In this document: piece by piece, positions 17,267 through 63,246 of the stretch
Numbering within the stretch: the stretch's first letter is position 1
Layout: every line of letters begins with the position of its first letter
Virus record (IMG/VR): IMGVR_UViG_3300047667_000558
Coordinates: 1-64,000 of that record
Origin: a virus
Length of the DNA stretch: 64,000 nt
Direction: 5' to 3' (one strand)
The notes under the pieces: model-generated
Seen by the model: the letters and a program-made list of their open reading frames with translations, nothing else
Told to the model about the DNA's origin: nothing
Database searches by the model: none
Made by a program: the position numbers and the translations under genes

Positions 17267-17270
17267 ATTG

Positions 17271-46432: not shown

Positions 46433-47491
46433 ATGGCATATACAATAAATTACTCCAATGGGAATAAACCATCGATCACCGTTGCGAAGGCAACAGTCGA
46501 CACCTCCACTAACATCGGGTTAGTGGGACAAGGGTATATTGATTATGGTGAAGTCGTCGCCGAAGATTTGCTGCACATACTAGAAAACTTTGCTAATGCC
46601 TCTGCGCCTAGTAAGCCAGTTGAAGGCCAGTTATGGTATGATACAGATTTAAACTCGCTAAAATATTTTGACGAAACCATTGCCAATTCTGGCAACTGGA
46701 AACCAATTGCTAGTATGTCGTACCAGTCAACAGCACCGACCACAGTTGGTGAAACAGACGGTCATTTTTGGCTTGACAGCGACACAGGTTTGTTACACAT
46801 TTATTATAATGGAGCATGGATTGCGATTACCGACGTCGTAGGCGACACACGTGTGATTGCTCGGACACGGTACGACACCAGTGACGCAACTCACCGCACA
46901 CTCGAAGTAATTGTGGCAGGTGAAATTGTTAGTATTACTAGCAGTGACGCCGATGATTGGGCACCACAAAATAGTGGCACAAACACAGAATATTTAGAAG
47001 ACGGTATTACGTTTCTGAATACAGAATTCACAACCATTACCCAAGGTATCAACCTAAATGAAGGTGATGCGTACTTTTTCTCAGGTACTGCAACGTCTGC
47101 ATTGTATGCCGACTTGGCGGAGCGATATGCGTCAGACGCAGTTTATAGCTTCGGCCACGTAGTTAAAATTGGCGGCACAAAAGAAATCACCGAAACAACT
47201 ACAACAGGATGTACTGATGTCTTTGGAATAATTTCAGAAAAACCAGCGTTTGCTATGAATAGTGGCGCGGGCACAGCCGCAACTCATCCGTATGTGGCTT
47301 TGTCAGGCCGTATTCCAGTCAAGGTCATCGGCATAGTGAACAAAGGCGAACGCCTTGTAGCAAGCGCGACAGCAGGTCACGCCCAAGCCGCATCATTGGA
47401 CGCCGATTGGCGCAGCATCATTGGCCGTGCATTAGAAAATAAAATTGATGATGGCTCTGGTCACATCGAGGTGGTTGTAGGGACAAAATAA
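46433..47491 (+). CDS. Virion structural protein with C-terminal fibre-type domain
   Basis: A 352-residue protein. Residues 1-60 contain YGEVVAEDLLHILENFANA, then a repeated short unit of the form P-x-x-G-Q-L-W-Y-D-T/S (KPVEGQLWYDTDLNSLKYF and GETDGHFWLDSDTGLLHIYY), common in phage appendage proteins. The C-terminal 130 residues (ADLAERYASDAVYSFGHVV, then VFGIISEKPAFAMN, then ALSGRIPVKVIGIVNKGER) form a domain that recurs at the C-termini of structural proteins in marine T4-like phages and may be an intramolecular chaperone (inference). Confidence 0.65.
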   Translation: MAYTINYSNGNKPSITVAKATVDTSTNIGLVGQGYIDYGEVVAEDLLHILENFANASAPSKPVEGQLWYDTDLNSLKYFDETIANSGNWKPIASMSYQSTAPTTVGETDGHFWLDSDTGLLHIYYNGAWIAITDVVGDTRVIARTRYDTSDATHRTLEVIVAGEIVSITSSDADDWAPQNSGTNTEYLEDGITFLNTEFTTITQGINLNEGDAYFFSGTATSALYADLAERYASDAVYSFGHVVKIGGTKEITETTTTGCTDVFGIISEKPAFAMNSGAGTAATHPYVALSGRIPVKVIGIVNKGERLVASATAGHAQAASLDADWRSIIGRALENKIDDGSGHIEVVVGTK

Positions 47492-48976
47492 GTGAATCTA
47501 ATACTAGGTGGCCTAATTGAAATTGCAGACTACAATGAGTTAGCACTAGAGATAAATCGTATCTTTAGTGACGCCACCACGAGTCTTGTATGGTCAACTA
47601 GTAATATAGTGTTAGACGACGTTGCAGACGGGGCAGGAGAGCCTGCTAACGCGACCAGAACATTGACACCAAGTCCCCTAGATACAGACTTTTTAACAAT
47701 AAGTGTAGACGGCATGACCCTAGACCTTGACGTTGACTATACTATCGCATATGGTGGCACAGTTGAAGTCACATACTTAGGCGCGTTGCCTGCAAATGCA
47801 ATATTGAAAACTTGGAATAGAACCGCGCATAGATATGGTTGGGGACAACAGGCTAGCGTGCATCCAATCACGGTTGGACAAGTTGTGCTAGCTGACGAAG
47901 CCACACTTCAGGCATATTTAGAAGCAAATGTCAATAATCTTATTGATAAGGTGAATATCATGGAAGTCCACACAGGTGGTCCCAGTGCATTAACACGTGT
48001 AGCAATGGGTGACTTGATCTATGCTACCGACAAAACACTGATTGCGACCACAGTAGAAACAGACATTCTCGTGGGCACAAATTACTGGCAGAATGATCTA
48101 GCCACAGTGTTTGCTGACGAGTTAGAATTTACCCGCACGTATGATTGGAACAATCTTCTAACTGCCGAAATACAACATTACTGGGAAAATTACGACTCTT
48201 TCCGGTATTTTTTTAACTCAGGCAACGAACTGCGCGGAAACTTGTCAATGACAGGGGACGCCCAAAACCAAGGATATGCTAACTGGAATCAAGTATGTAC
48301 ATTGATGGGTACCTTGTCAATCAATTATGACACAAGCTTTCAATCAGGATCAGGTGGCACATCTGCTGGCCTTGGGGCATACGATTTAACTACAGAATGG
48401 CAAACGGTGTTTACATCATCATCACCACAATTCCCAGTTAACGATACAGGCGAATACAATGGTGTGCCAGGCGACGAGTACAGTACATACATTGAACTCG
48501 TAATCGCGTGGGAAGCCCGTATTGTAGAGAATGTCCCAAGCGTGGGCAACATTGCTCTTGAGCTACGCGCTATTATGAGTGACACGGCGCTAAATGTTAC
48601 TACAACAGGCACAACAACATATCGTGGCAGCTATCTGTTAGCAGACGATATTATCGATAACTCTGCTACCTTTAGCCAAATTGCTAATGTTCCCGCATTT
48701 TTGGCCACCAACGCGTTTAACGCAGACTCTACAACGGCCATCACCAATATCACACAGGCATCAATCGCAGTTGTCACTGTTGCTGACACGTCCTTGTTGA
48801 CTGACGGCAGCTTTATAACGATTACTGGCGTGATTGGCATGACACAAGTGAATGATCTAGAATTTACGATTAGTATCGTAGACTCGACAACATTCCAACT
48901 AGTGTCGGTAAATTCCACCGGATATACCGCGTATGTGTCTGATGGCACAATAACTTATCCTATTTCCAACACATAA
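47492..48976 (+). CDS. Virion structural protein with FCCH-like C-terminal module
   Basis: A 494-residue protein starting at GTG directly after the previous stop. The N-terminal half has a beta-rich fibre-like composition (WSTSNIVLDDVADG, LTISVDGMTLDLDVDYTIAY). The C-terminal about 75 residues (GSFITITGVIGMTQVNDLEF, then STTFQLVSVNSTGYTAYVSDG) match a module that phage annotations often label ubiquitin-activating-enzyme FCCH-like and that is common in tail proteins. It is the last gene before an early promoter on the same strand. Confidence 0.6.
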   Translation: MNLILGGLIEIADYNELALEINRIFSDATTSLVWSTSNIVLDDVADGAGEPANATRTLTPSPLDTDFLTISVDGMTLDLDVDYTIAYGGTVEVTYLGALPANAILKTWNRTAHRYGWGQQASVHPITVGQVVLADEATLQAYLEANVNNLIDKVNIMEVHTGGPSALTRVAMGDLIYATDKTLIATTVETDILVGTNYWQNDLATVFADELEFTRTYDWNNLLTAEIQHYWENYDSFRYFFNSGNELRGNLSMTGDAQNQGYANWNQVCTLMGTLSINYDTSFQSGSGGTSAGLGAYDLTTEWQTVFTSSSPQFPVNDTGEYNGVPGDEYSTYIELVIAWEARIVENVPSVGNIALELRAIMSDTALNVTTTGTTTYRGSYLLADDIIDNSATFSQIANVPAFLATNAFNADSTTAITNITQASIAVVTVADTSLLTDGSFITITGVIGMTQVNDLEFTISIVDSTTFQLVSVNSTGYTAYVSDGTITYPISNT

Positions 48977-48981
48977 AACAC

Positions 48982-49010
48982 TTGACATTTTATTGATATA
49001 TACGTATACT
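48982..49010 (+). promoter_or_regulatory. Early sigma-70 promoter for the glycosyltransferase operon
   Basis: TTGACA (48982-48987), 17 bp, TATACT (49005-49010). It starts a nine-gene rightward operon at 49037 and marks the border between late structural and early accessory genes. Confidence 0.8.
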
Positions 49011-49036: not shown

Positions 49037-49384
49037 ATGGATGAACGACTTGAAAAGGCCCTAGCCTTTTCCAATTATCGCATTACAATTGAAAATAAAC
49101 GGATCGCACTAAAGCGCAGATTTGCTGCCATGTTGGTTGTGCACAACAACAATGGCATGTTTTTGGCTGACGCCGCGACTATTAGCTTTGTTGCTACCCT
49201 ACTCGAAGCAGGTCACACAGATAGTGTGTTGATTGACCAAAAAGACGCGCCCATCGAAGTCACAGACTTGCCAACCTTTAAGGCAGAGTTGATTGACGTC
49301 TATTACAAAGCAACCAATGAATACGCGTCAGAAATGAAAAAACTTTCCACGGCTCGCAATGTCAAAAAGGCCATGGATTGGTGA
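49037..49384 (+). CDS. Hypothetical protein, first gene of the early rightward operon
   Basis: A 115-residue helix-rich protein (RLEKALAFSNYRITIENKRI, then ALKRRFAAMLVVHNNNGMF). No family assigned. It is preceded by a GAAGGAA ribosome site 27 bases after the early promoter. It overlaps the following glycosyltransferase-like gene by a TGATG junction. Its size, basic N-terminal helix and position suggest a small cytoplasmic early protein. Nothing in the sequence tells its role. Confidence 0.65.
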   Translation: MDERLEKALAFSNYRITIENKRIALKRRFAAMLVVHNNNGMFLADAATISFVATLLEAGHTDSVLIDQKDAPIEVTDLPTFKAELIDVYYKATNEYASEMKKLSTARNVKKAMDW

Positions 49385-50271
49385 TGACATCAGGCGTAGC
49401 ATTTTTTGCTTATAACACCACCCACATTGATTATTTAAAACTGGCAGTGTTAGCAGGACGGTATGTTAAGCGGAATATGCCTGATCGCGAAATATGCCTG
49501 ATCACTGATAAAGGATCATGGGAATGGTTTCGCAATAGTCCCACGGGTGAGATGGCGGACGGGACTTTTGACGACGTAGTGTTGTTGGATGCCGACCCAG
49601 TTGTAAATAACCGTAGACACCGCGATTCACCATATACTGAATTTGTCAGTGATTTCAAGAATGGTAACAAGCATTTAGTGTTTGATCATACCCCGTATGA
49701 CCGAACACTACTATTAGACATTGACTATATCGTACAGAACAATTCACTTGATTATGTATTTAATTCTGACGACTCGGTGACATTGTTCCATGACGCTGAG
49801 TCCCTTGTCGGCAAGCCTCCGCATGCAGCACAGCGTCATCTAGACGCACAGGGTATACCAATGTTATGGAGCACCGCTGTTTATTTTGATAAGACCAATC
49901 CTACTACTAAGCTATTTTTTGATATGTGGGCACATGTCCGTGCCAACTATGATTACTATCAATTTCTGTATGGATTTCCTGGTACTATGTTTCGCACAGA
50001 CTTTTGTGTCAGCATTGCAGTACATCTGTTGAATGGAATGGGAATGGGTAACGTCATAGGCGACTTCCCCACGCCAATGATTAACATGAGCCAACTAGAC
50101 GACATTGCCAAGATCAACCAAGTGAATGAATGGGTCTTTTCGGTCACAGATCAAGTAGAAACTTGGAAAACATCATTAACATCTATTAAAGATGAAAATG
50201 TTCATGTAATGAACAAACGAGCATTAGACCGACATTTTGATACTATTATAACAGAATTGGATAAAACATGA
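49384..50271 (+). CDS. Glycosyltransferase-like protein (GT-A type)
   Basis: A 295-residue protein with a GT-A nucleotide-sugar transferase layout: an N-terminal Rossmann-like strand (GVAFFAYNTTHIDYLKLAVL), LITDKG, then a D-x-D candidate in RTLLLDIDYIVQNN, then an acceptor-side region with VTLFHDAE and TAVYFDKTNPTTKLFFDMW. Related proteins are common in marine T4-like phages, often in groups. The donor sugar and acceptor are unknown. The start ATG at 49384 is coupled to the preceding stop (TGATG). An upstream in-frame GTG is possible. Confidence 0.65.
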   Translation: MTSGVAFFAYNTTHIDYLKLAVLAGRYVKRNMPDREICLITDKGSWEWFRNSPTGEMADGTFDDVVLLDADPVVNNRRHRDSPYTEFVSDFKNGNKHLVFDHTPYDRTLLLDIDYIVQNNSLDYVFNSDDSVTLFHDAESLVGKPPHAAQRHLDAQGIPMLWSTAVYFDKTNPTTKLFFDMWAHVRANYDYYQFLYGFPGTMFRTDFCVSIAVHLLNGMGMGNVIGDFPTPMINMSQLDDIAKINQVNEWVFSVTDQVETWKTSLTSIKDENVHVMNKRALDRHFDTIITELDKT

Positions 50272-50603
50272 ACGACGCACCGGATAACATTTGGGCTGGT
50301 CCCTCTGAGGATGATAAGGGCGTTTTTTGGGACGTAGGGCATTGGGATGCTGATTTCGACAAAGGCTGCGTTAAATACCTCCGGTACGATAAGCATAGGG
50401 ATTATATGGCCGACATGAGGGCAGCGTTTTACGGGTCATGTGATCAAATTGATGAGTATAGAGAACAACGCGAGACGGATAAGGCAAGGATAGAAGAGCT
50501 TGAGGCGACATTGACAGCTATGATACATAGTTTTGATAACCGACTAATAGACATGGACGACGCCCGCAATCTCGCTTACAAAGCCCTACGGGAAGACACA
50601 TGA
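50268..50603 (+). CDS. Hypothetical coiled-coil protein
   Basis: A 111-residue protein with a Trp/Asp-rich N-terminal part (WAGPSEDDKGVFWDVGHWDA) and a coiled-coil C-terminal half (KARIEELEATLTAMIH). The style matches small accessory proteins found in phages of alphaproteobacteria, where RIEELEA helices are common. It overlaps both neighbours by 4 bases (ATGA). With the next gene it forms a pair that interrupts the glycosyltransferase-like genes. The function is unknown. Confidence 0.6.
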   Translation: MNDAPDNIWAGPSEDDKGVFWDVGHWDADFDKGCVKYLRYDKHRDYMADMRAAFYGSCDQIDEYREQRETDKARIEELEATLTAMIHSFDNRLIDMDDARNLAYKALREDT

Positions 50604-51034
50604 CAGACATTACTGAAAGATTGAAAGAAGCACATGCTCTTTATGATAAGGTAGGCATTCATGGGGCGAATGGTGCCGGATTGATGGTGGATGCTCTCGC
50701 AAGGATAGAAGAGCTTGAAGCCGCACGGGATTTCGGCATCATTGAAGGTGACATAGTTGCCCACCTTCAAGTCGTTGCGCTAACGGCGAGAGTTGAAGAG
50801 CTTACGGCGGCACTGGATGCGTTACGCGGTCGTTATCGTTTATATTCAGGGTGGCCTGAAATGAGTTGGGCGGGCCACACCGACGTGGCCTTGCTAAAAA
50901 TGGCAGATCAAGCCCTAGGAGATACCCCAGCCCCAGCCATAGCAGACTGCTTATGCCCAAATCCCAGAATGATTGGAGCCAATTCCGTAAGTTGGCATTG
51001 TGACATATGTGGAAAGGATGGGGTGGTCTCATGA
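50600..51034 (+). CDS. Hypothetical coiled-coil protein with C-terminal Cys cluster
   Basis: A 144-residue protein. Residues 1-75 are helical with two heptad segments (ALARIEELEAARDFG, ARVEELTAALDALRGR). The last 35 residues hold C-x-C (DCLCPNP) and C-x2-C (WHCDICGKDG), a plausible zinc ribbon. It shares the RIEELEA element with the preceding gene, so the pair may be related. It is coupled by ATGA at both ends. Confidence 0.6.
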   Translation: MTDITERLKEAHALYDKVGIHGANGAGLMVDALARIEELEAARDFGIIEGDIVAHLQVVALTARVEELTAALDALRGRYRLYSGWPEMSWAGHTDVALLKMADQALGDTPAPAIADCLCPNPRMIGANSVSWHCDICGKDGVVS

Positions 51035-51891
51035 CACAAGGATATATTTTTCTAGGCGTTGATGACCCAGATAAAACAACCAATATCGAATGTGCATATG
51101 CGTTGAGCCTTAGTATTAAACTGGCTGACCCAGACGCAGAAACGTGTGTCGTAATTCATAAGTTTGCCCATGTTCCTAAAAGGTACGAGAATGGATTTGA
51201 CTACATTGTGGAATTACCATATGGGCGTACAGATGTAAATCACCACGATATTATGCTTGATTTTTGGCAGATGTATTATTGCACACCATTTGACGAAACT
51301 ATGTTCATCAACACTTATTCGCTTGCAATTGATAACATTATCAGTCTATGGGAGATGCGCAAATTTGATAGTATTGTGTTTGGCAGTGCCCAAGATTATC
51401 GGGGCGGTGGGACATATGATGTTTCTAAATTTATTGCACAAGCACGTAACAAAATTCCAGAATTTGACACTGATGTAATCTATTTTCGTAAAGACCTGTT
51501 AGCTAGTGAATTTTTTAAAATGGCTGACCCAGTATTCAAACACTGGCGCGACATTTTTCGTAGTCACTTGCCTGAATACAGCCTAGCAGATTTTGACTTC
51601 ACAATGGTTATAAACTTGGTTGCACAGATATTGGGCGAAAGCTATCAATCTCCTGAATATTTTGATTACACTGATCTCTCATTGAATTTCTTGTTTGACC
51701 TCGAAACTGACATCCAAACAGATTGGTTAAATAGTGTTAACATTTGGATCACTGACAACATAGATGTAAAAATAAACAACCATCGCCAAACTGGTATATT
51801 TTATTACAGTGATCCTAGTTTCATGACTACTGAAATTTTAAGGAAATTACATGACAATTACACTGCAGTCACGGCCACGCTCGTCGAATAA
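51031..51891 (+). CDS. Glycosyltransferase-like protein, diverged GT-A
   Basis: A 286-residue protein, started at MTQGYIFLGVDD (ATGA overlap with the previous stop). The N-terminal part (NIECAYALSLSIKLADPDAE, then CVVIHKF) resembles the donor-binding half of GT-A enzymes. At the usual D-x-D site the sequence reads MFINTYSLAIDNI, so the metal motif is weak. The middle and C-terminus (YFRKDLLASEFFKMADPVF) follow the pattern of the 49384 protein, so the two are probably distant paralogs. The 3' end overlaps the next gene by 41 bases. Confidence 0.45.
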   Translation: MTQGYIFLGVDDPDKTTNIECAYALSLSIKLADPDAETCVVIHKFAHVPKRYENGFDYIVELPYGRTDVNHHDIMLDFWQMYYCTPFDETMFINTYSLAIDNIISLWEMRKFDSIVFGSAQDYRGGGTYDVSKFIAQARNKIPEFDTDVIYFRKDLLASEFFKMADPVFKHWRDIFRSHLPEYSLADFDFTMVINLVAQILGESYQSPEYFDYTDLSLNFLFDLETDIQTDWLNSVNIWITDNIDVKINNHRQTGIFYYSDPSFMTTEILRKLHDNYTAVTATLVE

Positions 51892-52843
51892 AGTCTGTTA
51901 TATCTACTATAACGATTGGACAGGTGAAATCTTGTCCGTTGGCCACAGTTTACGCCCAACGTCCCCCGCTCCATATTTTCAGTGTGAAGACTTGGCGGCA
52001 CATCAAATCATCAACGGTACCAAGTCCGATAAAAATTATATTGTCACTGTTGGCATTAACGACGACGCACAACTAGTTAAAAAATCAAAATATCTACAGG
52101 TTTCACAAAAAGAAAAAACATTGTACCTGTTGCCTGAAAAAGTGTTGCCATCATGGGATATACGTGCTACTATATACAAAACAAACTCTACATTATTGAT
52201 TGAAATCAATAATACAATGGTGTCTCGCTTAGTCACAGAACATATGCGCCGTGAAGTGTCTATGCAAGACGACGTTGTGTTTAAGTTTTACATCATCCGC
52301 AAAAATATGCCTGATTGCTTACTCAAGGTCATAGACGTGGACGTCCATGAGCTAATCAATCATGGACACGTGACTGTGCCACTTGCTGACATTAATCAAT
52401 TTGCAGGGCTAGACGACATAGCCATTATGACGTGCCGTCTTTTCGAACATTATTACTTCGTTGTAACAGACAATAAATACTTAGGCAATGACAGTGCGCC
52501 CGCATTGCAAGTTACCGATAAGAAATGGCAATTTGTCCAGACGGATACAGAATCTCATATTGAGTTTAATCAGACAGGCGACAAAATAGAAATAAAGAGC
52601 ATTGTTGACGCAACGCAATTGACGGTCGCAGGATTGCATCAACGGCATCTAACATTTTATATAGTAGGTGACACCCCTGATGAATATTATGATCATATAA
52701 CAGTAAATGTCAATGATCTTCGTATGGGCAAGACAACAAAATTTATAATTGATTTTGACATAATGGATATGAATATCATATACCGTAACCAATTACTTAA
52801 AGTGAATAAGAGGACCTTATATGACACTGACACCGATCAATGA
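51851..52843 (+). CDS. Hypothetical protein, beta-rich, in the glycosyltransferase operon
   Basis: A 330-residue protein with a TAAGGAAA ribosome site, beginning within the end of the previous gene. It is strand-rich with regular hydrophobic alternation (KVCYIYYNDWTGEILSVGH, KTLYLLPEKVLPSWDIRATI, RHLTFYIVGDTPDEYYDH) and few Cys. It could be a structural or carrier protein rather than an enzyme. No family identified. Confidence 0.55.
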   Translation: MTITLQSRPRSSNKVCYIYYNDWTGEILSVGHSLRPTSPAPYFQCEDLAAHQIINGTKSDKNYIVTVGINDDAQLVKKSKYLQVSQKEKTLYLLPEKVLPSWDIRATIYKTNSTLLIEINNTMVSRLVTEHMRREVSMQDDVVFKFYIIRKNMPDCLLKVIDVDVHELINHGHVTVPLADINQFAGLDDIAIMTCRLFEHYYFVVTDNKYLGNDSAPALQVTDKKWQFVQTDTESHIEFNQTGDKIEIKSIVDATQLTVAGLHQRHLTFYIVGDTPDEYYDHITVNVNDLRMGKTTKFIIDFDIMDMNIIYRNQLLKVNKRTLYDTDTDQ

Positions 52844-53837
52844 TTTTGACATCATTTACATTAGCTATGACGAACCAAACGCAGACGCGAACTGGCATGA
52901 TCTATTAGACAAATGCCCATGGGCTAAGCGCAGCCATGGAGTATATGGCAGTGACGCGGCGCACAAGGCCGCTGCGAGGCTATCTGAAACCAGTAGGTTC
53001 CTCACTGTCGACGCTGACAACATTGTTGATCCAGAGTTCTTCAATTTAGAGATTGATATGGCAAAACTTGGACGCAGTGATGTGATTAGTTGGGCAGCAA
53101 AGAATGAGATTAACGGGTTGGTCTATGGCAATGGTGGCATCAAATGTTGGCCAAAGCATGTCGTTGAACGCATGCAAACACATGAAGCGGCACCTGAAAA
53201 TAATCCCGCTGCACAGGTGGACTTTTGTTGGAACATCAATTATGTTCAGATGAACAATGTGTATTCACACGTTTACAATAATGCAAGTCCCATGCAAGCA
53301 TGGCGTGCAGGCTTCCGCGAAGGCTGTAAGATGACACTAGTTGGCGGCGACGTAGTAGCGGATAAGGCTCAAGTCAAAAAGGTACATCACAAAAATCTGC
53401 AACGTTTGCTTGTATGGCAATCGGTAGGCACAGACGCTACAAACGGCGACTGGGCTAGGTATGGTGCCCGTCAGGGGTCTGTGATGACCAATCTACAGCA
53501 AGATAGCTGGGATTGGCGTATGGTACGTGATTTTAAATGGCTCAACAATTTCTGGGCAACAAACATCGCCCCATCGTTTGATGTGCAAGATTATACAAAT
53601 GAAGCCGATATTCGTATGTGCCCCAACACTGGATACAAGTGGGACAACCTGAAGTTAGCAGAAGAGACCATCTCACTAGGCCAACAATGCCGTGATGAGT
53701 TGGGCTTAGTGATAGCTGATCTTGACGCACAGGGCAGTAAGTTCTTCAAAGCAGTATACGTGAATCCGGCACGAGTTGCGCCCATGGCTCGCGAAGAAGA
53801 AGTCATTAATGAAATCAAGGAAACAAATAATGAATAA
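52821..53837 (+). CDS. Glycosyltransferase family 2-like protein
   Basis: A 338-residue protein with a GT2-type start (FDIIYISYDEPNADANWHDL), a gap-free Rossmann stretch, then D-A-D in SRFLTVDADNIVDPEFF, the metal- and nucleotide-binding motif. The later WAAKNEINGLVYGNGGIKCW and QVDFCWNINYV would be the acceptor side. The ribosome site is GAGG. Overlap is 23 bases upstream and 8 bases with the radical SAM gene. Sugar donor and acceptor are unknown. Confidence 0.7.
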   Translation: MTLTPINDFDIIYISYDEPNADANWHDLLDKCPWAKRSHGVYGSDAAHKAAARLSETSRFLTVDADNIVDPEFFNLEIDMAKLGRSDVISWAAKNEINGLVYGNGGIKCWPKHVVERMQTHEAAPENNPAAQVDFCWNINYVQMNNVYSHVYNNASPMQAWRAGFREGCKMTLVGGDVVADKAQVKKVHHKNLQRLLVWQSVGTDATNGDWARYGARQGSVMTNLQQDSWDWRMVRDFKWLNNFWATNIAPSFDVQDYTNEADIRMCPNTGYKWDNLKLAEETISLGQQCRDELGLVIADLDAQGSKFFKAVYVNPARVAPMAREEEVINEIKETNNE

Positions 53838-55410
53838 AGATGACTTAGAACTCAAAGGATTTAAGATTTCCAACTCTGGAGCAGTGCAGATGGAAGATGC
53901 AAACTTAAATGTACTAAAGGGGTTACTAGATAAGAAAGGCTGCGGACTATGTCTTGCCAAATGGAACCAAGTAACACTCCATTTGGGTACAGGCCTGATG
54001 CATAGTTGTCACCATCCAGTACCGCATAAAATTCCATTAGAGGAATTGAAAGACAATCCTGCGGCATTATTCAATACGAAACACATTAAAAAAGCACGTA
54101 AACAAATGCTTAATGGTGAGAAGCCTTCTGAATGTGATTACTGCTGGCGGATCGAAGAAAATGGCGACACCAGCGACAGGTTGTACAAAAGTATTGAGCC
54201 ATGGGCATTGCCATCATATGACAGAGTGGTTGCATCGACTGGTGACGAAGATGTATTTCCAAGCTATCTTGAGGTAGATTTCAGTAACGCATGTAACATG
54301 AAATGTGTGTATTGTGGTCCTGAATTTTCCAGCAAGTGGGTGAGCGAATTAAAGCAAAAAGGTCCAATAAAATTAATGGAAGGAACTCCTGAAGAATCTT
54401 GGGCACAAGGCTGGCAAGACTTAGACAGTCTAAGTTACAAGCAGAGTGAAGAAAATCCGTATGTAACTGCTTTCTGGAAATGGTTTCCAGAAGCGTACAC
54501 TCATTTAAAAGAGTACCGAATTACAGGCGGTGAGCCACTGATGAGTAAAGAGACCTTTAGAAGTATTGATTGGTTAATCGCAAATCCAAATCCTGAGTTA
54601 CAGTTCAGCATGAACTCGAATTTATGTGTGCCGGACAAGATTTGGGATAAATTTATTGACAAATTAGAAATCTTAAAGAGTAATAATACTATCAAAAAAG
54701 TAACTATGTATGTAAGTGCTGAGTCATGGGGCGAAGCAGCAGAATACGCACGGACAGATATGGACTTCGAATTGTTTAAGACCCGTGCCGAACAACTTGC
54801 GGAAATCGGTAATGTCAGAATAGTAGTGATGGCGGCATTCAATGTGTTGGCTATCACCACATTCAAAACATTATTGGAATGGATTTTAGAATTAAAGAAA
54901 AAACACAATACAAACTCAATTATTGTCAATGATGAAATCAACACTGGATATAAAATGGCTGGGACAGATTTTAAAGAACGGGCAGAAAAGAATCCAAGTC
55001 TAGTAGATTCATATGCTATTGGAATTGATATACCATACGTGCGTCACCCGACCCATTTAGATGCACAGTATTGCAGCGATGACTTAGTCGAAGATTATCT
55101 GTTGCCTGCTCTGGACTTCATGAGCAATAATGTAGCATGGTCATCGTACAATGGTCATCAAGGTTTCGAGGCACATGAAGTAGAAAAATTAAAACGTATT
55201 ATCTATCATCGAATTTATTTTAATCCTAAAAATAATCCGCGATCTGAAGACACGAAGATCAAACAGCAACGCGCATTGTTTTACGAGTTTGTTGAGGTGC
55301 TTGATGCCCGTCGCAATACTGACTTCTTAGCTGTGTTTCCTGAAATGAAAGAATTCTACGAGATATGCAAGAACGAGAAATTACAGGTTGATGCGAAATT
55401 CAATAAATGA
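53830..55410 (+). CDS. Radical SAM enzyme with twitch-like domain
   Basis: A 526-residue protein starting at MNKDDLELKG (AAGGA ribosome site). It carries the radical SAM cluster C-x3-C-x2-C at Cys155, Cys159 and Cys162 (ACNMKCVYCGPEF), followed by the SAM-binding GGEPLMSKETF. Upstream Cys and His residues (CGLCLAKWNQ, SCHHP, CDYCWRIEENG) could bind an auxiliary cluster, as in SPASM/twitch enzymes. Such enzymes modify peptides, sugars or cofactors by radical chemistry. Phage versions are known but their substrates are mostly not. The neighbours suggest a sugar or a glycosylated virion protein as substrate (inference). Confidence 0.8.
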   Translation: MNKDDLELKGFKISNSGAVQMEDANLNVLKGLLDKKGCGLCLAKWNQVTLHLGTGLMHSCHHPVPHKIPLEELKDNPAALFNTKHIKKARKQMLNGEKPSECDYCWRIEENGDTSDRLYKSIEPWALPSYDRVVASTGDEDVFPSYLEVDFSNACNMKCVYCGPEFSSKWVSELKQKGPIKLMEGTPEESWAQGWQDLDSLSYKQSEENPYVTAFWKWFPEAYTHLKEYRITGGEPLMSKETFRSIDWLIANPNPELQFSMNSNLCVPDKIWDKFIDKLEILKSNNTIKKVTMYVSAESWGEAAEYARTDMDFELFKTRAEQLAEIGNVRIVVMAAFNVLAITTFKTLLEWILELKKKHNTNSIIVNDEINTGYKMAGTDFKERAEKNPSLVDSYAIGIDIPYVRHPTHLDAQYCSDDLVEDYLLPALDFMSNNVAWSSYNGHQGFEAHEVEKLKRIIYHRIYFNPKNNPRSEDTKIKQQRALFYEFVEVLDARRNTDFLAVFPEMKEFYEICKNEKLQVDAKFNK

Positions 55411-55426
55411 AACTGGTACCGTAATC

Positions 55427-56668
55427 ATGTTTAATATATTCCCAGTATGGCCTGATCCAAAATATCCTAAGTCTGATATATTTGCTGTTAATTATAAGAT
55501 AACAGATGTATCAGACAGTGGTCCATTATTGATATGGCACGAGTTAAATGGTGACCCAATGGCACCACCATTTAATACCATACTCGACGGCACGCTGTTT
55601 GCTAAGTTGGACAGCGAGACTATTGACCGAGTTAACAACAAGACTGCATGGATAGTGATCAACACTGCAAACGAATGTATTGGTCCCTCGTATACAGACG
55701 AGGAGGTACGGGTAGACTATTTAAATTTGCACGAAATATTAACGGTATCTGCCATGAAATATGGGATTGATCCTACGTCGGTTATATGGTTGACTGGTGA
55801 CTTAAATGCCGAAGACAAATTGATTGACCTAACACCAATTCACGTTATAAGTGCCTGCGTCTTTGTGCCATTAGTACACCGCATGATTACTGCACACCAA
55901 ACAGCAGTATCATTGTCAACGTTTTCACATCCATATAAATTTAAAAATGTTGCAATCTCTCCTAATCGTCACATAAATTCGCATCGAACTTACATGATTA
56001 CCAGACTGGCGCAATTGGAATTGTTGGAAAACATAAACTACAGTTTTCCCAGAAATATACACGGTAAAACAATCAGCGACGGATACTGTGATCTTAAAAT
56101 TAAAAGCAACATATCACCCACGTTTGATCAACACAACTTAATTGACTGGGACCAGATGGCAGTTACGTGCATGGAGCTATATCAATGTGAGTTGCCACTA
56201 ACAATTGACGTTGACCCCAATACCAATACGTGTCTAGGACTAGACGCCTTCCTGACATTGAAGCAGCCATACCAAGACAGCATATATAGTATTCTGACAG
56301 AGTCGCATGCAGACGGCGGTAAATGCTTTATTAGCGAAGCGTTGGTCGTGGCTATCGTTATGCAGACGCCATTCTTGTTAGTAGGAAATCGAGGCGTGAT
56401 CGCACAGATGCGGGCATGGGGATTACACACATTTGACGATCTATTTGATGAATCATACGACGACGAGGTTGATGATATTAAACGGTATGAAATGATCATC
56501 GAACAGATACAACGCATTGACAATATGCCATGGGAAGAATTGTTAGCAATTCGCATGAGTATGAAACAAAAATTAGATGAGAATGTTACTCGTTTAGCTA
56601 CACTGTCTGCCGAATTAGATCAGTCTCTCAATGACAAGTTAAGTCGTATTATTGCGAATAGTAACTAA
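55427..56668 (+). CDS. Hypothetical protein of the marine-phage WGLHTFDDLFDESYD type
   Basis: A 413-residue protein. Starts at ATG 55427 or 55391 are both possible; I prefer 55427, which avoids a 20-base overlap. The C-terminal 110 residues (CFISEALVVAIVMQTPFLLV, then MRAWGLHTFDDLFDESYDDE) match a conserved region of unknown proteins in marine T4-like phages. The rest is an alpha/beta mix with no motif I can name. It ends the rightward operon and overlaps the convergent cupin gene by 30 bases. Confidence 0.6.
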   Translation: MFNIFPVWPDPKYPKSDIFAVNYKITDVSDSGPLLIWHELNGDPMAPPFNTILDGTLFAKLDSETIDRVNNKTAWIVINTANECIGPSYTDEEVRVDYLNLHEILTVSAMKYGIDPTSVIWLTGDLNAEDKLIDLTPIHVISACVFVPLVHRMITAHQTAVSLSTFSHPYKFKNVAISPNRHINSHRTYMITRLAQLELLENINYSFPRNIHGKTISDGYCDLKIKSNISPTFDQHNLIDWDQMAVTCMELYQCELPLTIDVDPNTNTCLGLDAFLTLKQPYQDSIYSILTESHADGGKCFISEALVVAIVMQTPFLLVGNRGVIAQMRAWGLHTFDDLFDESYDDEVDDIKRYEMIIEQIQRIDNMPWEELLAIRMSMKQKLDENVTRLATLSAELDQSLNDKLSRIIANSN

Positions 56669-57013
56669 CGGCACATCACAGTCGTCCCATCGTTTTGTAA
56701 GCATACTGACAAATCTTAGATCAGTGACTGCTTTAAATGAATGTGGAAGGTACGCAGGAACGCGCACACTGTCGCCAACGTTTAACACAGTTGTGTACTC
56801 ACAACTATCACCGTATTCAGTAAAATTACAAACACCATCCACCACCATGATATATTCAACAAACTCAGGATGATAATGATATCCTCGTTCATTGCCTTGC
56901 AATGTAGTGAGTAAGTTGTATTCTACTATATGGTCGTCTGGAAAGAAACTCTGAATGGTGCCACGCGGATCACCAAATACAGTAGGGGTCATTATTGTGC
57001 AATATTTTAACAT
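56639..57013 (-). CDS. Cupin protein, WxcM/FdtA-like sugar isomerase type
   Basis: A 124-residue single-domain cupin. Motif 1 is GYHYHPEFVEYIMVVDG (G-x-H-x-H-x4-E-x6-G), motif 2 is GDSVRVPAYLPHSFKAV. The leading DPRGTIQSFF and KRWDD ending recall the dTDP-sugar 3,4-ketoisomerases that sit next to DegT aminotransferases. The metal-binding His pair is intact. It lies last in the minus-strand sugar operon, coupled to the aminotransferase by TAATG. Alternative: a dTDP-4-keto epimerase-like cupin. Confidence 0.65.
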   Translation of the reverse strand: MLKYCTIMTPTVFGDPRGTIQSFFPDDHIVEYNLLTTLQGNERGYHYHPEFVEYIMVVDGVCNFTEYGDSCEYTTVLNVGDSVRVPAYLPHSFKAVTDLRFVSMLTKRWDDCDVPLVTIRNNTT

Positions 57014-58083
57014 TATATTCCTCGTTTAACAATTTCGCTGATATGACTGACATCAGCGTATGTCAGGCTGTGTTGACTAGGCAAATGCAATCCTCTCCGT
57101 GCAATAGTTTCTGCGTTTGGGATGTCTGTCTGTTCAAATTGACTATGGAACGGTTGCTGAGTCAACGGCTGGTAAGCAATACGGTAACCAATGTTGTTGA
57201 GCTTTAATGACTCTATGATTTCATCGCGATATAAAGTTAATATCTCTGGGTAAATTGGCGCAGTGTTGTGTAGGTTAGTACCTACAAACATTGCATGGCC
57301 TCCCAAATGTGTGCGGTACCATTCATAAATTTGCTTTTTATGATCTACGATCTCCTGTAACCGTTCAAATTGTCCTAATCCAAATGCAGCCTGCAAGTCT
57401 GTAAATTTATAATTTAGTCCCATGGTGTTATAAATCTCACCATCGGCCACTGTTCTGCCGAAGTTCTTGATAGCCTTGATTTGGTCACTGATGTCGTCGC
57501 AATCAGTAACGATGCAGCCACCTTGTCCGGTCGTAATCATTTTAGGTGCACCAAAACTAAACACACCCATATCTCCCAGTGTGCCTACATGTTTGCCGTC
57601 ATGGAAACTTCCCAATGACTGTGCACTGTCTTCAATTACCATGACGCCCTGTGATTGTAATTTGATAATTTCTTCAGTGGTGTCTTTTGACAATCTGCCG
57701 TTGATACTGGTTACAAATACTACGCCACAATCGGGCGGAATTTTTTTAAAGTCGATGGTACATGAGGTATTATCGATGTCAACAAAGCACGGTACACCGC
57801 CTAAACTGATCGCCCCGTTAACAGTTGCTGCCTGTGTGTACGCACTCGCCGCGAACTTGACCCCAGGCCGTATGCCCGCAATCATGGCCGCTATGTGCAA
57901 TCCAGCAGTCGCGCTAGTAACCATGTGAGCGTGTGCGCTGTTTGTGTACTCACAAATCTTGTCTTCTAGCTCTCGCGTCAATTTATGTTCCATGATCCAA
58001 CCGCCCGAAGACATGTACTCCGACACGCGGTCACGCTCAGCTTGAGTGTATTCAGGATTCATATAGCTATTAGGTGTTATCAT
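57013..58083 (-). CDS. DegT/DnrJ/EryC1 sugar aminotransferase
   Basis: A 356-residue PLP enzyme that transfers an amino group to a keto-sugar nucleotide. The PLP Lys is Lys181 in FSFGAPKMITTGQGG, with the upstream IEDSAQSLGS motif and a downstream LNYKFTDLQAAFGLGQFERL. I start at MITPNSYMNPE (58083). The frame extends 7 codons further upstream. It overlaps the preceding epimerase gene by 14 bases. With a cupin and epimerase alongside, the product is likely an aminodeoxy-hexose. Confidence 0.85.
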   Translation of the reverse strand: MITPNSYMNPEYTQAERDRVSEYMSSGGWIMEHKLTRELEDKICEYTNSAHAHMVTSATAGLHIAAMIAGIRPGVKFAASAYTQAATVNGAISLGGVPCFVDIDNTSCTIDFKKIPPDCGVVFVTSINGRLSKDTTEEIIKLQSQGVMVIEDSAQSLGSFHDGKHVGTLGDMGVFSFGAPKMITTGQGGCIVTDCDDISDQIKAIKNFGRTVADGEIYNTMGLNYKFTDLQAAFGLGQFERLQEIVDHKKQIYEWYRTHLGGHAMFVGTNLHNTAPIYPEILTLYRDEIIESLKLNNIGYRIAYQPLTQQPFHSQFEQTDIPNAETIARRGLHLPSQHSLTYADVSHISEIVKRGI

Positions 58084-58978
58084 GCTGCACCATATAATCT
58101 TCATATGTTTTTGTCAAGGCGTCTTCAATAGTAAATTTAGGTTTCCATCCCAATGACCGCAATCTGGAATTGTCCATGCGCCGATGCAGGACACCTTCTG
58201 GCTGATCACGGTTGAACCAAAGTCTGCCAGTGAACCCGCTTATAGTCTTCAATCGGTCGGCAATGTATCCGATACTAATGGCCTCGCCATAGCTGACATT
58301 GACAACGTCAAATTCGTCGTTGTTAATGATTAAGTCGTATGCTGTGATTGCGTCTTCAACGTACAGGAGGTCACGTGTCTGGTTACCACTTCCCCATATT
58401 TCAATTTCGGTCAAGTCGTCTTGGACAGCATTGTGAAATTTCTCAATCAGTGCACCGATCACATGTGCGTACTTGCCGTTTCTTTCACCCGCTCCGAAAA
58501 TATTGGTGTTGATTGCGGTAGTCCATTTTGATCCATAGTTCGCATTATGTGCTTTAATTTGTTCCATGCCGAGTAGTTTACACATTGCACTTGGCATATA
58601 CGCTGGATGCGGTTTGCCGGACATCAAGTCATCTTCAACAAAATATTGATCATTGCCTGCATTTGGATAACTACATCCACTGCCCTGTAACAACACCCTG
58701 TGGATTTTATTCTCGTGAGCAGTTTGCAATAGATTGTTCTGGATACTAATGTTGTCACCATACACCGAAAAGCTGTTGTCCAAGTCTTCCTGTATGCCAC
58801 CAACTGACGCCGCATTAATGATTACATGGGTAGGTTCGTACAGACTAATGTCAACCCGTGTGGCAATATAATTTTTATAGTTGATAGTGGACGTGTTGCC
58901 ACCCTCACAATTGTCAAAATATTCCATCATCTTGCTGCCGATCAATCCGCGATTTCCGGCGATGTAATATGAGTTCAT
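58070..58978 (-). CDS. NAD-dependent epimerase, GDP-fucose-synthase-like, altered active site
   Basis: A 302-residue SDR-type protein with a Rossmann start (AGNRGLIGSKMMEYF), NAASVGGIQ, and LLQGSGCSYP, closest in pattern to GDP-fucose synthase. The catalytic Y-x3-K is replaced by Ser130-A-M-C-Lys134 (PSAMCKLLG), so Tyr is Ser; Lys remains. The nearest Tyr is seven residues before the Lys. The enzyme may have changed its reaction or lost it. A good AAAGGAA ribosome site lies inside the 40-residue gene upstream, with an ATGA overlap. Confidence 0.75.
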   Translation of the reverse strand: MNSYYIAGNRGLIGSKMMEYFDNCEGGNTSTINYKNYIATRVDISLYEPTHVIINAASVGGIQEDLDNSFSVYGDNISIQNNLLQTAHENKIHRVLLQGSGCSYPNAGNDQYFVEDDLMSGKPHPAYMPSAMCKLLGMEQIKAHNANYGSKWTTAINTNIFGAGERNGKYAHVIGALIEKFHNAVQDDLTEIEIWGSGNQTRDLLYVEDAITAYDLIINNDEFDVVNVSYGEAISIGYIADRLKTISGFTGRLWFNRDQPEGVLHRRMDNSRLRSLGWKPKFTIEDALTKTYEDYMVQHDNT

Positions 58979-59097
58979 GGCGTGTTCCTTTTAATATCTT
59001 GGCATAGTGTCTTTATGTCTGTTGTGGTCATGCATAAGTGACACCGCACTCGCTGCCCACGATCTTCTCCAACAAAAAATAATCTAACGTTAGTCAT
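58975..59097 (-). CDS. 40-residue Cys-containing small protein
   Basis: A short frame, ATG at 59095-59097, fits exactly between the methyltransferase and the epimerase: 8-base overlap upstream and ATGA overlap downstream, like every other junction in the operon. It has a basic and hydrophobic start (TNVRLFFVGEDRGQRVRC), a C-x2-C pair (CHLC) and a third Cys near the end (IKTLCQDI). Metal binding is possible. No clear ribosome site precedes it, so translation may depend on coupling. Without it there would be a 111-base gap in an otherwise gapless operon. Confidence 0.6.
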   Translation of the reverse strand: MTNVRLFFVGEDRGQRVRCHLCMTTTDIKTLCQDIKRNTP

Positions 59098-60265
59098 TTT
59101 CGATCACATGTACAGTTGGCATTGCAAACACCATCTTACCGCCAGCAGCAATCCAATCTGCTTCTTTCTCGACGAACATATCTTTGAAACCAAAGTTAGG
59201 GACAAAAAATACGTCAGCTTTTTCTCTTGCTTCCTCTTCAGAAATAATCGGAATGTTTGTCCCTACCGTAAATCTGCCAATCTTGTCAGGATGTATTTCA
59301 GCAGCACCGTCAAATAAGTCATACAGTCCCCATAATTGTAGCATTGTATTCCCCTTCGTACTGGCACCATAAACGTAACATGACAATCCTTCATCCTTAA
59401 AGGCACGAAGCACTTGTTGTAATTCCTTGCCATTGTGTTCGATTGTTTCAGCAAAGGTATCAAGGCTTGACAAATCCTCTTGATATGATATACTACCGCC
59501 GCTATAATGTCTACCCCATATTTGATAGCTACCGCCTTGAATGTCATTCTCAACTACTTTGAAAATCTCTAATCCATTCTGCTCGTACAATCTGACAAGA
59601 CTGTCGTAACTGTAATATTCCAAATGCTCGTGACAAATATTGCCAACATCATACATTTCCAGCATTGGAGCAAGCGTCATCAATTGGGCGATAAAGACGC
59701 CGTCACTTTGCAACGTCTCTTTCACACACTGGATGAATTGATTTGGATTATCCATGTCGTAAAACATTCCAATCGCGGTGATCACTTTTGCTAATTTGCC
59801 ATCCATATGAGAGTGGTTCCACATCATTGGGATCACGATGTCGGCGTGATTAGCCAGCTTGGTAATGAGATTTGCAGCAGGTTCGCACCCAACACGGACG
59901 CGCCATGAATCAACCCCACTTAATAACGTGCCATCATTCGCACCAATATCTAACACTACATCACCTATGTCAGTTATTGTGTTGATCATGGCGGCAATAT
60001 CCAATAGGTTATCTCTCAATTTAGCATTAATTCCGCTCTGATACCAATAGTGATCTTGGTACAATATTTTAGGATCAACTGTATGCCTGAGTTGCACTAA
60101 GTCGCACTGTTCACATTGATCAAGGACTAATGGTGCCTTTGGTGTCTGTGCATTAGACGCCTGCAATGGAAAATCGTTTATACAGATTTGTCCAAAGTCA
60201 ATAATCTCTTTAAGTTTCCCATCACAAACTCTACATGTGGTGGCAATGTTAACACAACTATTCAT
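59090..60265 (-). CDS. SAM-dependent sugar C-methyltransferase
   Basis: A 391-residue protein of the NovU/TylC3-like C-methyltransferase type. The N-terminal zinc module has CRVCDG and CEQCDLVQL. The SAM-binding motif is VLDIGANDGTLL, and the region AQLMTLAPMLEMYDVGNICHEHLEYYS contains the conserved His-Glu-His signature. The C-terminal Rossmann part (CYVYGASTKGNTMLQLWGL) is also typical. It would add a branching methyl to a 4-keto-deoxysugar. Start at MNSCVNIATT (60265) with 8-base overlap to the upstream gene. Confidence 0.85.
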   Translation of the reverse strand: MNSCVNIATTCRVCDGKLKEIIDFGQICINDFPLQASNAQTPKAPLVLDQCEQCDLVQLRHTVDPKILYQDHYWYQSGINAKLRDNLLDIAAMINTITDIGDVVLDIGANDGTLLSGVDSWRVRVGCEPAANLITKLANHADIVIPMMWNHSHMDGKLAKVITAIGMFYDMDNPNQFIQCVKETLQSDGVFIAQLMTLAPMLEMYDVGNICHEHLEYYSYDSLVRLYEQNGLEIFKVVENDIQGGSYQIWGRHYSGGSISYQEDLSSLDTFAETIEHNGKELQQVLRAFKDEGLSCYVYGASTKGNTMLQLWGLYDLFDGAAEIHPDKIGRFTVGTNIPIISEEEAREKADVFFVPNFGFKDMFVEKEADWIAAGGKMVFAMPTVHVIEND

Positions 60266-61037
60266 ATCCGGCTTCCTTTGCGATAGTATAACATTTTTCG
60301 ACATCAAACGCAAGTTCAATCGTCATTTTTCGGTATGCGCTATTGTGCATGTCGGTTTCTTCGTAGTATAATGTATTTGTCTTGTCAGCATAGTCAGATG
60401 TCAGTTCTTCGAAGAATAGATTGTCAGCAACAAGTGCTTTAATCATTGGGACTATTCTTTCATATGGAAAATTGTCAATAACTAATTCTGTCACTGTGTC
60501 ATCCTCTGTTGCATGCCATACATTCGTCGGCATATATTCTGTTTTAAGCATACTTATTGCTTGGGCAACCATGTCATTTCTTTTGATGATTGTAATGCAG
60601 TCCGCCTCTTGAAATAAACAAGCTACCACTTCTGGAGTAACATGTTGGTATCGCATTAGCTTGACACACCAATTCTTATTTGAGGCGCGTAGTGCTTTCC
60701 ATCTAATTTCATGGGCAGTAATAAAGTCATTGCAGGTAGGAAATTTATCAGTCAACACGTACTGGAAATTGTCAACAGTTTCATATACGCTGTCTAATCT
60801 TGGCTGATGATACTGGCTTCCCCACGCAGATTCAAAATCTCCAATCTCCAAATATTTCAAACATTCTGGTGTTATTCGGTCATATAATATAGTCTGTCCG
60901 TCTTGACTTCTTGGTAATATTAAGTTTTCAATATTGAAGTATTCCATTAGGTTCAGGTCAGCGTCGACCATACTTGCAATAGCGTGGCCACCTGATCTAG
61001 GCGTAGCTAAAAATACAGTGTTTACACCATTACTCAT
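60258..61037 (-). CDS. Sulfotransferase-like protein
   Basis: A 259-residue protein with a P-loop-like 5'-phosphosulfate-binding loop FLATPRSGGHAI (residues 9-20) and a later 3'-phosphate-type motif CITIIKRNDMVAQAISM, the R-x3-x-x-A-x-S arrangement of PAPS-dependent sulfotransferases (Stf0-like). It would transfer sulfate to a sugar or glycan. The rest is helical with few landmarks. It overlaps neighbours by 8 bases on each side. Confidence 0.7.
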   Translation of the reverse strand: MSNGVNTVFLATPRSGGHAIASMVDADLNLMEYFNIENLILPRSQDGQTILYDRITPECLKYLEIGDFESAWGSQYHQPRLDSVYETVDNFQYVLTDKFPTCNDFITAHEIRWKALRASNKNWCVKLMRYQHVTPEVVACLFQEADCITIIKRNDMVAQAISMLKTEYMPTNVWHATEDDTVTELVIDNFPYERIVPMIKALVADNLFFEELTSDYADKTNTLYYEETDMHNSAYRKMTIELAFDVEKCYTIAKEAGYE

Positions 61038-61614
61038 ATGTGATAACTTTCATGGTGGCATGGTCTGTATTTAACAACGTAGTGTTATTCCATGCTTGTC
61101 GTGCATAGTCGTGCATGAACATGGCATTGTCAGGCGACAGGGGGGTCGTGCAATTCCCCAAAATATAATGGTGGAAATGTGGGTATGTCAATCTAATTGA
61201 CGTAATGCTACTTGGCAGACAAATGTCACTATGCAGCCCTGCCCAGATGAAGCCGCGCCGACCCCAATCATGATAATCAGGGACCACTGTCTGTACCCCA
61301 TGTTCCCAAAAGAACTCCTGTAAACGTGTCTGGAACGGATATGTTTTATGCCCTTGACTCACGCCATTACGACGCAACGACTGTAACATAAAGTCACTTG
61401 ACTTCACACATTTAATAAATTCGTCAACACAGTACTCAACATGATCGTGGGCATCTGCTATCGTCAAATTATCGCATTGCAGACATGCATGGTCTTCGCG
61501 CATATCAACCAACGTAACTTGCCATTGACTTGGTGAAAGATGTAGGGTAATGTTTTCTGTCACAAATTCCCCATGTACCACGTGTGGGTCACCTCGCAAT
61601 ATCACGTTATTCAT
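61030..61614 (-). CDS. Hypothetical protein in the sugar operon
   Basis: A 194-residue protein, His- and Cys-rich (CLQCDNLTIADAHDHVEYCV, YHDWGRRGFIWAGLHSD, YPHFHHYILGNCT). No family recognised. It may bind a metal. It lies between the dehydrogenase-like and sulfotransferase-like genes with 8-base overlaps at both ends, so it is surely co-expressed with them. Confidence 0.6.
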   Translation of the reverse strand: MNNVILRGDPHVVHGEFVTENITLHLSPSQWQVTLVDMREDHACLQCDNLTIADAHDHVEYCVDEFIKCVKSSDFMLQSLRRNGVSQGHKTYPFQTRLQEFFWEHGVQTVVPDYHDWGRRGFIWAGLHSDICLPSSITSIRLTYPHFHHYILGNCTTPLSPDNAMFMHDYARQAWNNTTLLNTDHATMKVITYE

Positions 61615-62401
61615 CGCGCATCCCTGCGAAGGTAGTCTTGGCTAGTTTGTCGTTGTCACCAATGATAGCCGATATAAATTCATAATTCAAGTTGGAACTC
61701 AAAAATTCTAATGCTCGCATATCTTTTGGAAAACATGCACCAGCATAACCACGAGAATGTTCACTAACGTCTAGGTATTCATCAGGCAATCCATTACGTG
61801 TAACAAATCCATTTTTAATTTTATCGTAATCAACATCTTCAAACTGTTGTGCAATGTCGTAAAATAAATTACCAAAAATAACACGCATTGCTCCAAAACT
61901 ATTGTGCATATATTTAATTGCTTCTGCTTCAGTAGGATTTAACCGCAAGAACTTTTTTGAAATCTTACCGTGACTTCTAATAATTATATCACTGACGTGT
62001 AGGTCAGCTGCGCCAATAATCAATACTTCGTTATTAAATTCAAAATCGTATGCTGCACAACGCTCTTTCATAAACTCCGGAACAAATGCAATATTCGTAT
62101 TTTTATATTTGTCAATAAATGATTGTGTTGTACCTGGAGTTATCGTACTCTTAATTGCAATTACACCAGTATAATTTAAATCCAACAACTCAACGACACA
62201 ATTTTCAATAATTGATGTGTCGCACTGTCCACTGTCAAGCGCGGGACTAGGAACAGAAATATATACAATTTCAGCTTGCAATAATGATTCAATTGTTGTA
62301 TCATATTTTATGTCGTGGGTTAACACTTTAAAGCCTTGATTTAAAAACCCATGCTCCATTGCATTGCCCACAACGCCCATTCCGATTATGCCTATTTTCA
62401 T
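61607..62401 (-). CDS. UDP-glucose/GDP-mannose dehydrogenase-like protein, short form
   Basis: A 264-residue protein with NAD-binding GMGVVG at residues 7-12, VYISVPSPAL, IAIKSTITPGTT, PEFMKERCA, the Lys of EAIKYMHNSFGA, and the catalytic Cys223 in GYAGACFPKDM. Family enzymes are about 390-450 residues and have a C-terminal UDP-binding domain, which is missing here. It may still oxidise a sugar, or use a different carrier. It overlaps the epimerase gene by 4 bases and the next gene by 8. Confidence 0.75.
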   Translation of the reverse strand: MKIGIIGMGVVGNAMEHGFLNQGFKVLTHDIKYDTTIESLLQAEIVYISVPSPALDSGQCDTSIIENCVVELLDLNYTGVIAIKSTITPGTTQSFIDKYKNTNIAFVPEFMKERCAAYDFEFNNEVLIIGAADLHVSDIIIRSHGKISKKFLRLNPTEAEAIKYMHNSFGAMRVIFGNLFYDIAQQFEDVDYDKIKNGFVTRNGLPDEYLDVSEHSRGYAGACFPKDMRALEFLSSNLNYEFISAIIGDNDKLAKTTFAGMRDE

Positions 62402-63246
62402 GTTAATATCCTCTTAATACCTTGTTCGAATGATGTGAATTCATATTCACCAATCACCGATAATAATTTTGTTAAGTCCGCTGCCCGATGCTTAACACTG
62501 CCAGTTTTGCCAGCGACGTTGGCCAATAATGACTTATCTGTCCCAATGTGGTCACAGATAATCTGTGCGGCATGCAGGATGGATATATCAACGTCTGACC
62601 CTATGTGTAGTATTTCATCATGCAGTGCATACACTTTAGTTATGATATCTATCGCGTCGTCAATGTAACAGAAGCTTCTATGCTCGTCGTAACCAAACAC
62701 ACGATAGTCACCATTGGTAACTCTGTCAATAAATTCAGGAATAAAGTGCAACTGTTGTCCTTTGCCATAAATGTTATGAAACCGTAAAATGTTGTATGTG
62801 TGGCCGAATTGTTTACTATGTCCAATGACAGCACTTTCCATTGCAATCTTTGCCGCTGCATAACTCCATCTTACATTGGTGATATCGTCAATAACCAGCG
62901 GTGTCGTTTCTGCGGTAGGCACTGGTGTGATCCCTAAGTTGACGCCGCCTGCATACGATTCACTTGTGCCCGCATACACAAAGTGTGCATTGGGATATCG
63001 ATCAAGTAAGTTCATGGTTGGCCTGACTATAGACGTGGTTACGTCATATGGTGTGGTGTAGAAATTTGCAGTACTGTTGAACGCAGCTAAATGAATTACC
63101 GTATCAACATCTGGCAACGACCGGACAAACTCAGGATCAGTCAAGTCTCCATTGTATTGTGTGTCGGTAAAGTCTGTTGTGATAACTGGTAAAATTTTGG
63201 ATAAGTGTGAGCCGATAAATCCATTGGCCCCTGTTAATAAAATCAT
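62398..63246 (-). CDS. NAD-dependent nucleotide-sugar epimerase/dehydratase
   Basis: A 282-residue extended SDR protein. Rossmann motif is TGANGFIGSHL (residues 5-15), then VIHLAAFNS, VYAGTSESYAGG, and an intact Y-x3-K at Tyr129 and Lys133 (WSYAAAKIAMES), then RFHNIYGKGQQLHF. It resembles UDP-glucose 4-epimerases and UDP-glucuronate decarboxylases, so the exact reaction cannot be told. It is the first gene of the nine-gene operon under the late promoter at 63268-63275, with an AAAGGT ribosome site. Confidence 0.8.
   Translation of the reverse strand: MILLTGANGFIGSHLSKILPVITTDFTDTQYNGDLTDPEFVRSLPDVDTVIHLAAFNSTANFYTTPYDVTTSIVRPTMNLLDRYPNAHFVYAGTSESYAGGVNLGITPVPTAETTPLVIDDITNVRWSYAAAKIAMESAVIGHSKQFGHTYNILRFHNIYGKGQQLHFIPEFIDRVTNGDYRVFGYDEHRSFCYIDDAIDIITKVYALHDEILHIGSDVDISILHAAQIICDHIGTDKSLLANVAGKTGSVKHRAADLTKLLSVIGEYEFTSFEQGIKRILT

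Follow-up and report, generated by a model that had tools for sequence, protein, structure and literature searches.

We found that the open reading frame at positions 53830..55410 (+ strand) of the window, the 64,000-nucleotide stretch of viral DNA that was analysed, encodes what its sequence identifies as an "N-terminal twitch" radical SAM enzyme of family NF033640, and that the gene lies at the 3' end of a conserved, fibre-linked glycosyltransferase operon with an early-type promoter. The enzyme family and its occurrence in phages are already known; the conserved promoter-bearing operon appears undescribed. We propose, tentatively and at somewhat less than even odds, that this is an early glycosyltransferase operon in which the radical SAM enzyme oxidatively tailors the glycan of a host surface polysaccharide.

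The window makes up most of a 66,277-base IMG/VR record. It encodes baseplate wedge subunits, a baseplate hub/tail lysozyme, tail fibres and a T4-type late sigma factor, and these matches mark it as a fragment of a T4-like myovirus. A podovirus or N4 origin, hinted at by an ORF of 3,573 aa, was rejected because the matches to the baseplate wedge, the tail lysozyme and the late sigma factor are T4-like. This long ORF (17268-27989, + strand) has the baseplate genes on one side and the fibres on the other, a position as described for VrlC. The operon region fits the pelagimyophage host recognition cluster as PMC7029224 presents it, and what is published on such phages makes a marine source likely.

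The radical SAM frame is open throughout, from an ATG at 53830 to a stop codon at 55408-55410, and specifies 525 aa. Its ATG sits 8 bases inside the end of the preceding ORF (52821-53837), an overlap that suggests translational coupling. The NCBIfam profile NF033640 (N_Twi_rSAM) scored 299 bits over residues 39-509 (cut-off 170, E 5.7e-89), and the alignment and an AlphaFold model agree with this assignment. The CX3CX2C motif C155/C159/C162 (54292..54315, +) is invariant in 53 relatives, as is the GGE of a GGEPL motif at residues 233-237 (54526..54540, +) that is predicted to bind SAM. These motifs, on a predicted radical SAM barrel, place the protein in the radical SAM superfamily, as the first-pass annotation had read from the same cysteines and GGEPL; Pfam PF04055 alone scored slightly under its gathering score (26.0 of 29.5 bits). 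That annotation had also named what would speak against its reading, homology to a housekeeping family such as QueE or the NrdG activase, and profile comparison gave none. The models for NrdG2 (15.9 of 131 bits), MoaA (25.5 of 284) and viperin (15.3 of 180) stayed far under their cut-offs, and QueE gave no NCBIfam profile match at E<=0.01. QueE, NrdG, MoaA and viperin identities were rejected, since the curated equivalog scores were not reached. Relatives of the protein were present in 203 IMG/VR stretches. Among 50,697 phage records, direct relatives were found only in two Vibrio phages (27% over half the length), and gene 2, gene 3 and a relative's radical SAM protein had no relatives in these records.

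The annotation had further suggested that additional cysteines hold an auxiliary cluster, and the alignment bears this out. The predicted ligands C41, C60, C102 and C105 (53950..54144, +; CX13GX4C...CX2C in 53 relatives) are spaced C41-X13-G55-X4-C60 ... C102-X2-C105, which corresponds to the published Aux I pattern of SPASM/twitch enzymes, CX9-15GX4C...CX2C (PMC6231123). Invariant columns in the 53 aligned relatives include C41, G55, C60, C102, C105, C155, C159 and C162, and the full seven-cysteine pattern was found in 53/53 relatives versus 0/10,600 shuffled proteins. In every one of these relatives the four-cysteine motif lies N-terminal to the radical SAM motif, the arrangement that marks NF033640. 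The enzyme thus shares the N-terminal twitch cysteines, CX3CX2C and GGE with this family, at a score far over the cut-off, and nothing excludes membership. BtrN, anSME, SkfB and SuiB share the Aux I ligand pattern, but in these enzymes the auxiliary motif comes after the radical SAM motif, whereas that of the window enzyme comes before it. Membership of the C-terminal SPASM/twitch group was rejected: PF13186 did not match in a Pfam search, and the only cysteines after the radical SAM motif (C266, C415 and C513) are not invariant among relatives, leaving no conserved cysteine motif past the radical SAM domain. By analogy with BtrN, the four cysteines would speak for an auxiliary cluster that is fully ligated and accepts electrons. 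SkfB has four conserved cysteines and yet an open site on the cluster, so a complete set is no guarantee of full ligation (PMC6231123).

The AlphaFold model (pLDDT 92) had its best structural match in SkfB (Z 13.9, rmsd 3.2, 213 aligned), which was tied with others. Its core aligns with SkfB, BlsE, SuiB, anSME, DesII, PFL-AE and viperin at similar Z (12-14), in a comparison that covers the core mainly and hardly probes the first 50 and the last 60 residues; the radical SAM core fold is shared with anSME, SkfB and SuiB at about 14% identity. Because such diverse radical SAM enzymes match at similar Z, the substrate is not identifiable from the fold.

The genes around the enzyme, all on the + strand, begin with a fibre-like virion protein of family F6 (46433..47491), assigned by PHROG tail/virion matches; a relative has a Peptidase_G2-like C-terminus that scored under the Pfam cut-off. 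The last fibre-region gene, F4 (47492..48976), is a putative virion protein by its position, the late-type motif of its relatives and its co-variation with the glycosyltransferase genes. The operon opens with gene 3 (49037..49384), which encodes a 115-aa protein. It is followed by two GT8-like glycosyltransferase genes of the same BLAST cluster: GT8a (49378..50271), with the weaker profile match to glycogenin (E 0.014), and GT8b (51007..51891), whose N-terminal part resembles the glycogenin profile at E 4e-7. The two small ORFs between them (50268..51034) are an insertion in this phage and have no family. Next come gene 7 (51851..52843), a fast-evolving cassette protein, and gene 2 (52821..53837), a GT-A-like glycosyltransferase by its predicted fold (pLDDT 88, Z about 10). 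The GT-like neighbours of the first-pass annotation are thereby confirmed at the level of profile and fold. Family 8 (55388..56668), its marine-phage family, is a frequent follower of the radical SAM gene. By sequence, genes 3, 7, 2 and family 8 had no credible match to solved structures. Convergent with the operon, a nucleotide-sugar island occupies 56639..63246 on the - strand, with profile matches to a cupin, a DegT aminotransferase, a GDP-fucose-synthase-like epimerase, a sugar C-methyltransferase, a UDPG/MGDP dehydrogenase, an epimerase and, weakly, a Stf0 sulfotransferase.

To compare gene order we used 80 IMG/VR loci anchored on the radical SAM gene, reduced to 49 below 90% radical SAM identity, and 80 loci anchored on gene 2, of which 56 were non-redundant. 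The usual order among the 49 loci is F6-F4-gene 3-GT8-GT8-gene 7 (or 11)-gene 2-radical SAM, with gene 2 upstream of the radical SAM gene in 48/49, mostly adjacent. The same upstream block was almost always present in the 56 loci anchored on gene 2. Directly 3' of gene 2, these loci carry an NF033640-family radical SAM gene (23 loci), a gene-2 paralogue (20 loci) or, in the remainder, other genes; several have no radical SAM gene within the stretch displayed. In distant phages, one to five radical SAM genes usually follow the transferase block. A fixed upstream block followed by variable downstream genes argues for a core formed by the transferase block, to which a radical SAM gene is an optional but frequent addition. 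In three loci (L006, L026 and L074), DHFR-like and thyA-like genes lie between gene 2 and the radical SAM gene.

We then assessed the promoters of the region. A sigma70-type, early-type promoter, TTGACA-17-TATACT (48982..49010, +; 11/12 to consensus), lies 26 bases upstream of gene 3. The region as a whole holds 71 sigma70-like sites versus 54.8 expected, and a single site alone is weak evidence. Across loci, a site of at least 10/12 within 75 bases before gene 3 was found in 23/39 non-redundant loci versus 1.4 expected from shuffles, the other 16 being without an early-type motif there. In the same 39 loci, the GT8, gene 7, gene 2 and radical SAM genes had no sigma70-like excess upstream, and F4 had a small one (6/39 versus 0.7 expected). 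The late-type motif TATAA[AG]TA shows the converse distribution, upstream of F6 in 11/17 (0.4 expected), of F4 in 21/39 (1.0 expected) and of gene 3 in 1/39. In the window, the T4 late promoter TATAAATA was not in excess and did not occur before F4. The annotation's single early promoter is backed by this comparison, and we infer early transcription of the operon comparatively, because its support is promoter sequence across loci.

Pairwise distances of F4, gene 3, GT8a, GT8b and gene 2 correlate over 35 loci (rho 0.65-0.90). F4 correlates with the glycosyltransferase genes at rho 0.65-0.88 (0.85-0.88 for the GT8 genes), and the radical SAM gene correlates with the same block more weakly (rho 0.36-0.49; permutation maxima 0.25-0.31). 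The weaker co-variation is consistent with more frequent exchange of the radical SAM gene, as of an exchangeable accessory; that between fibre and transferases can be plain co-inheritance of neighbours. The radical SAM gene is clearly under purifying selection, with omega at 0.03-0.14 in 21/22 relative pairs and at 0.39 in one close pair. A decayed gene was rejected, since the frame is open in the window and omega is well under 1 in relatives.

In the mechanism that we propose, host sigma70 RNA polymerase would transcribe the operon early, ahead of the late fibre genes. The three GT-like enzymes would build or extend a glycan, supplied partly by the adjoining nucleotide-sugar genes. The radical SAM enzyme would cleave SAM at its C155/159/162 cluster and abstract a hydrogen atom either from the glycan or from the sugar donor. 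The radical electron would then pass to the auxiliary cluster with its ligands C41/C60/C102/C105, which would leave the sugar oxidised (or else epimerised or cross-linked). The polysaccharide of the host surface that the linked fibre recognises would be the likely target. If this is the fibre's receptor, altering it would hide the receptor while infection proceeds, which might serve superinfection exclusion or the release of progeny. The radical SAM enzyme would then be an exchangeable tailoring part and not the core of the module. Phage O-antigen-modifying (seroconversion) modules likewise consist of early-made enzymes that alter the receptor glycan; the likeness is our proposal, and these modules use other glycosyltransferase families, the radical SAM enzyme being a further difference. 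Modification of the host O-chain has been proposed independently for the glycosyltransferases of this phage group in PMC7029224.

The bacterial relatives also bear on the target. In a genome scan, relatives occurred chiefly in Bdellovibrionota MAGs among the matches listed, and a class-wide draw gave a match in 27/119 genomes. Several bacterial relatives lie near GT4 and ABC transporter genes, two loci hold PqqD proteins, and in three Bdellovibrionia genomes (3/27 with a match; L218, L227 and L249) a chromosomal family gene lies beside flagellin genes. Most bacterial contexts contain neither GT4/ABC transporter, PqqD nor flagellin genes. These contexts hint at surface structures, and the two PqqD loci point to peptide substrates. 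The L249 member, at the same place as L083, is an 834-aa fusion with a second radical SAM domain and has FliD and FliS nearby.

The glycosyltransferases might instead glycosylate the phage's own fibres F4/F6, with the radical SAM enzyme modifying that glycan or the fibre backbone, which we regard as possible though rather unlikely. In distant phages the cassette follows immediately after the last fibre gene, the GT8 genes co-vary with F4, and flagellin, which adjoins the family member in the three Bdellovibrionia genomes, is another surface filament. However, promoter types are split between late-type fibres and an early-type operon, and flagellin adjacency is confined to a minority of the genomes with a match. 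A RiPP-like modification of a small peptide from phage or host, with the 115-aa product of gene 3 as a candidate, is improbable. The RiPP maturases SkfB and SuiB are among the top structural matches, PqqD occurs at the two bacterial loci and gene 3 opens the operon, but the non-peptide enzymes BlsE, DesII and viperin tie structurally, the gene 3 alignment has no repeated core or Cys-rich segment, and the scanned neighbours in the window gave no match to a PqqD-like domain.

T4 glucosylates its DNA, and the thymidylate-synthase family includes base hydroxymethylases. A comparable DNA hypermodification, in which transferases and radical SAM enzymes decorate a modified base against restriction, would fit the inferred early expression and glycosyltransferase content but is very improbable: genes of the thymidylate-synthase family were not found in 13/20 related records (some of 146, 168 and 262 kb; they may be fragments), those present are likely thyA, as in the three cassettes with thyA-like and DHFR-like genes, and the transferases resemble those GT8 and GT-A enzymes that act on glycans and proteins. 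A 5-hmdU kinase search gave no match, but its control also matched nowhere, so it is not evidence.

The first-pass annotation had said that a phage-encoded radical modification of a sugar or a structural protein would be new. Novelty of the enzyme as such was not supported: it is an ordinary NF033640 member with many IMG/VR relatives, and comparable cassettes have been reported. Pelagimyophages, T4-like marine phages, carry radical SAM cassettes within their host recognition cluster (PMC7029224), and a T4-like genome with 12 radical SAM genes is also described (PMC5332604). These phages are likewise T4-like, with a tail-fibre/glycosyltransferase region and radical SAM genes as added cassettes, but the passages compared mention neither a conserved fibre-GT8-GT8-GT operon nor an early-type promoter, and they assign no N-terminal twitch. 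In a literature search with most subscription journals outside its range, neither the conserved operon nor its promoter turned up as described, and no paper assigned a function to NF033640.

We also raise, as a wider and doubtful possibility, a widespread module that couples a receptor-binding fibre genetically to glycosyltransferases expressed early and to a set of exchangeable radical SAM enzymes, which would write radical-made sugar or protein modifications on the host surface or the fibre. If true, the phage-host interface would bear a combinatorial chemical code, and predatory Bdellovibrionota would have relatives of it. The apparently marine T4-like phages of this group carry many radical SAM genes with no assigned purpose, and placement in a promoter-defined, fibre-linked operon turns one such anonymous auxiliary gene into a testable hypothesis of receptor or fibre chemistry with a defined gene set.

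Several loci depart from the usual arrangement. The gene 2 proteins of L061, L012 and L009 are fusions that begin with long repeats (those of L061 without a Pfam match), and the usual upstream cassette is absent or lost at the contig end. Radical SAM genes commonly stand in tandem: L004 (5989-12787), L007 (5989-13406), L156 and L168 have arrays of as many as five diverged N-terminal-twitch paralogues, and single phage contigs (G001-G003) gave 15-19 family matches, some under the cut-off. A Bdellovibrionia genome of 3.1 Mb (G022) has about 14 family members over the cut-off, an expansion as in the phages.
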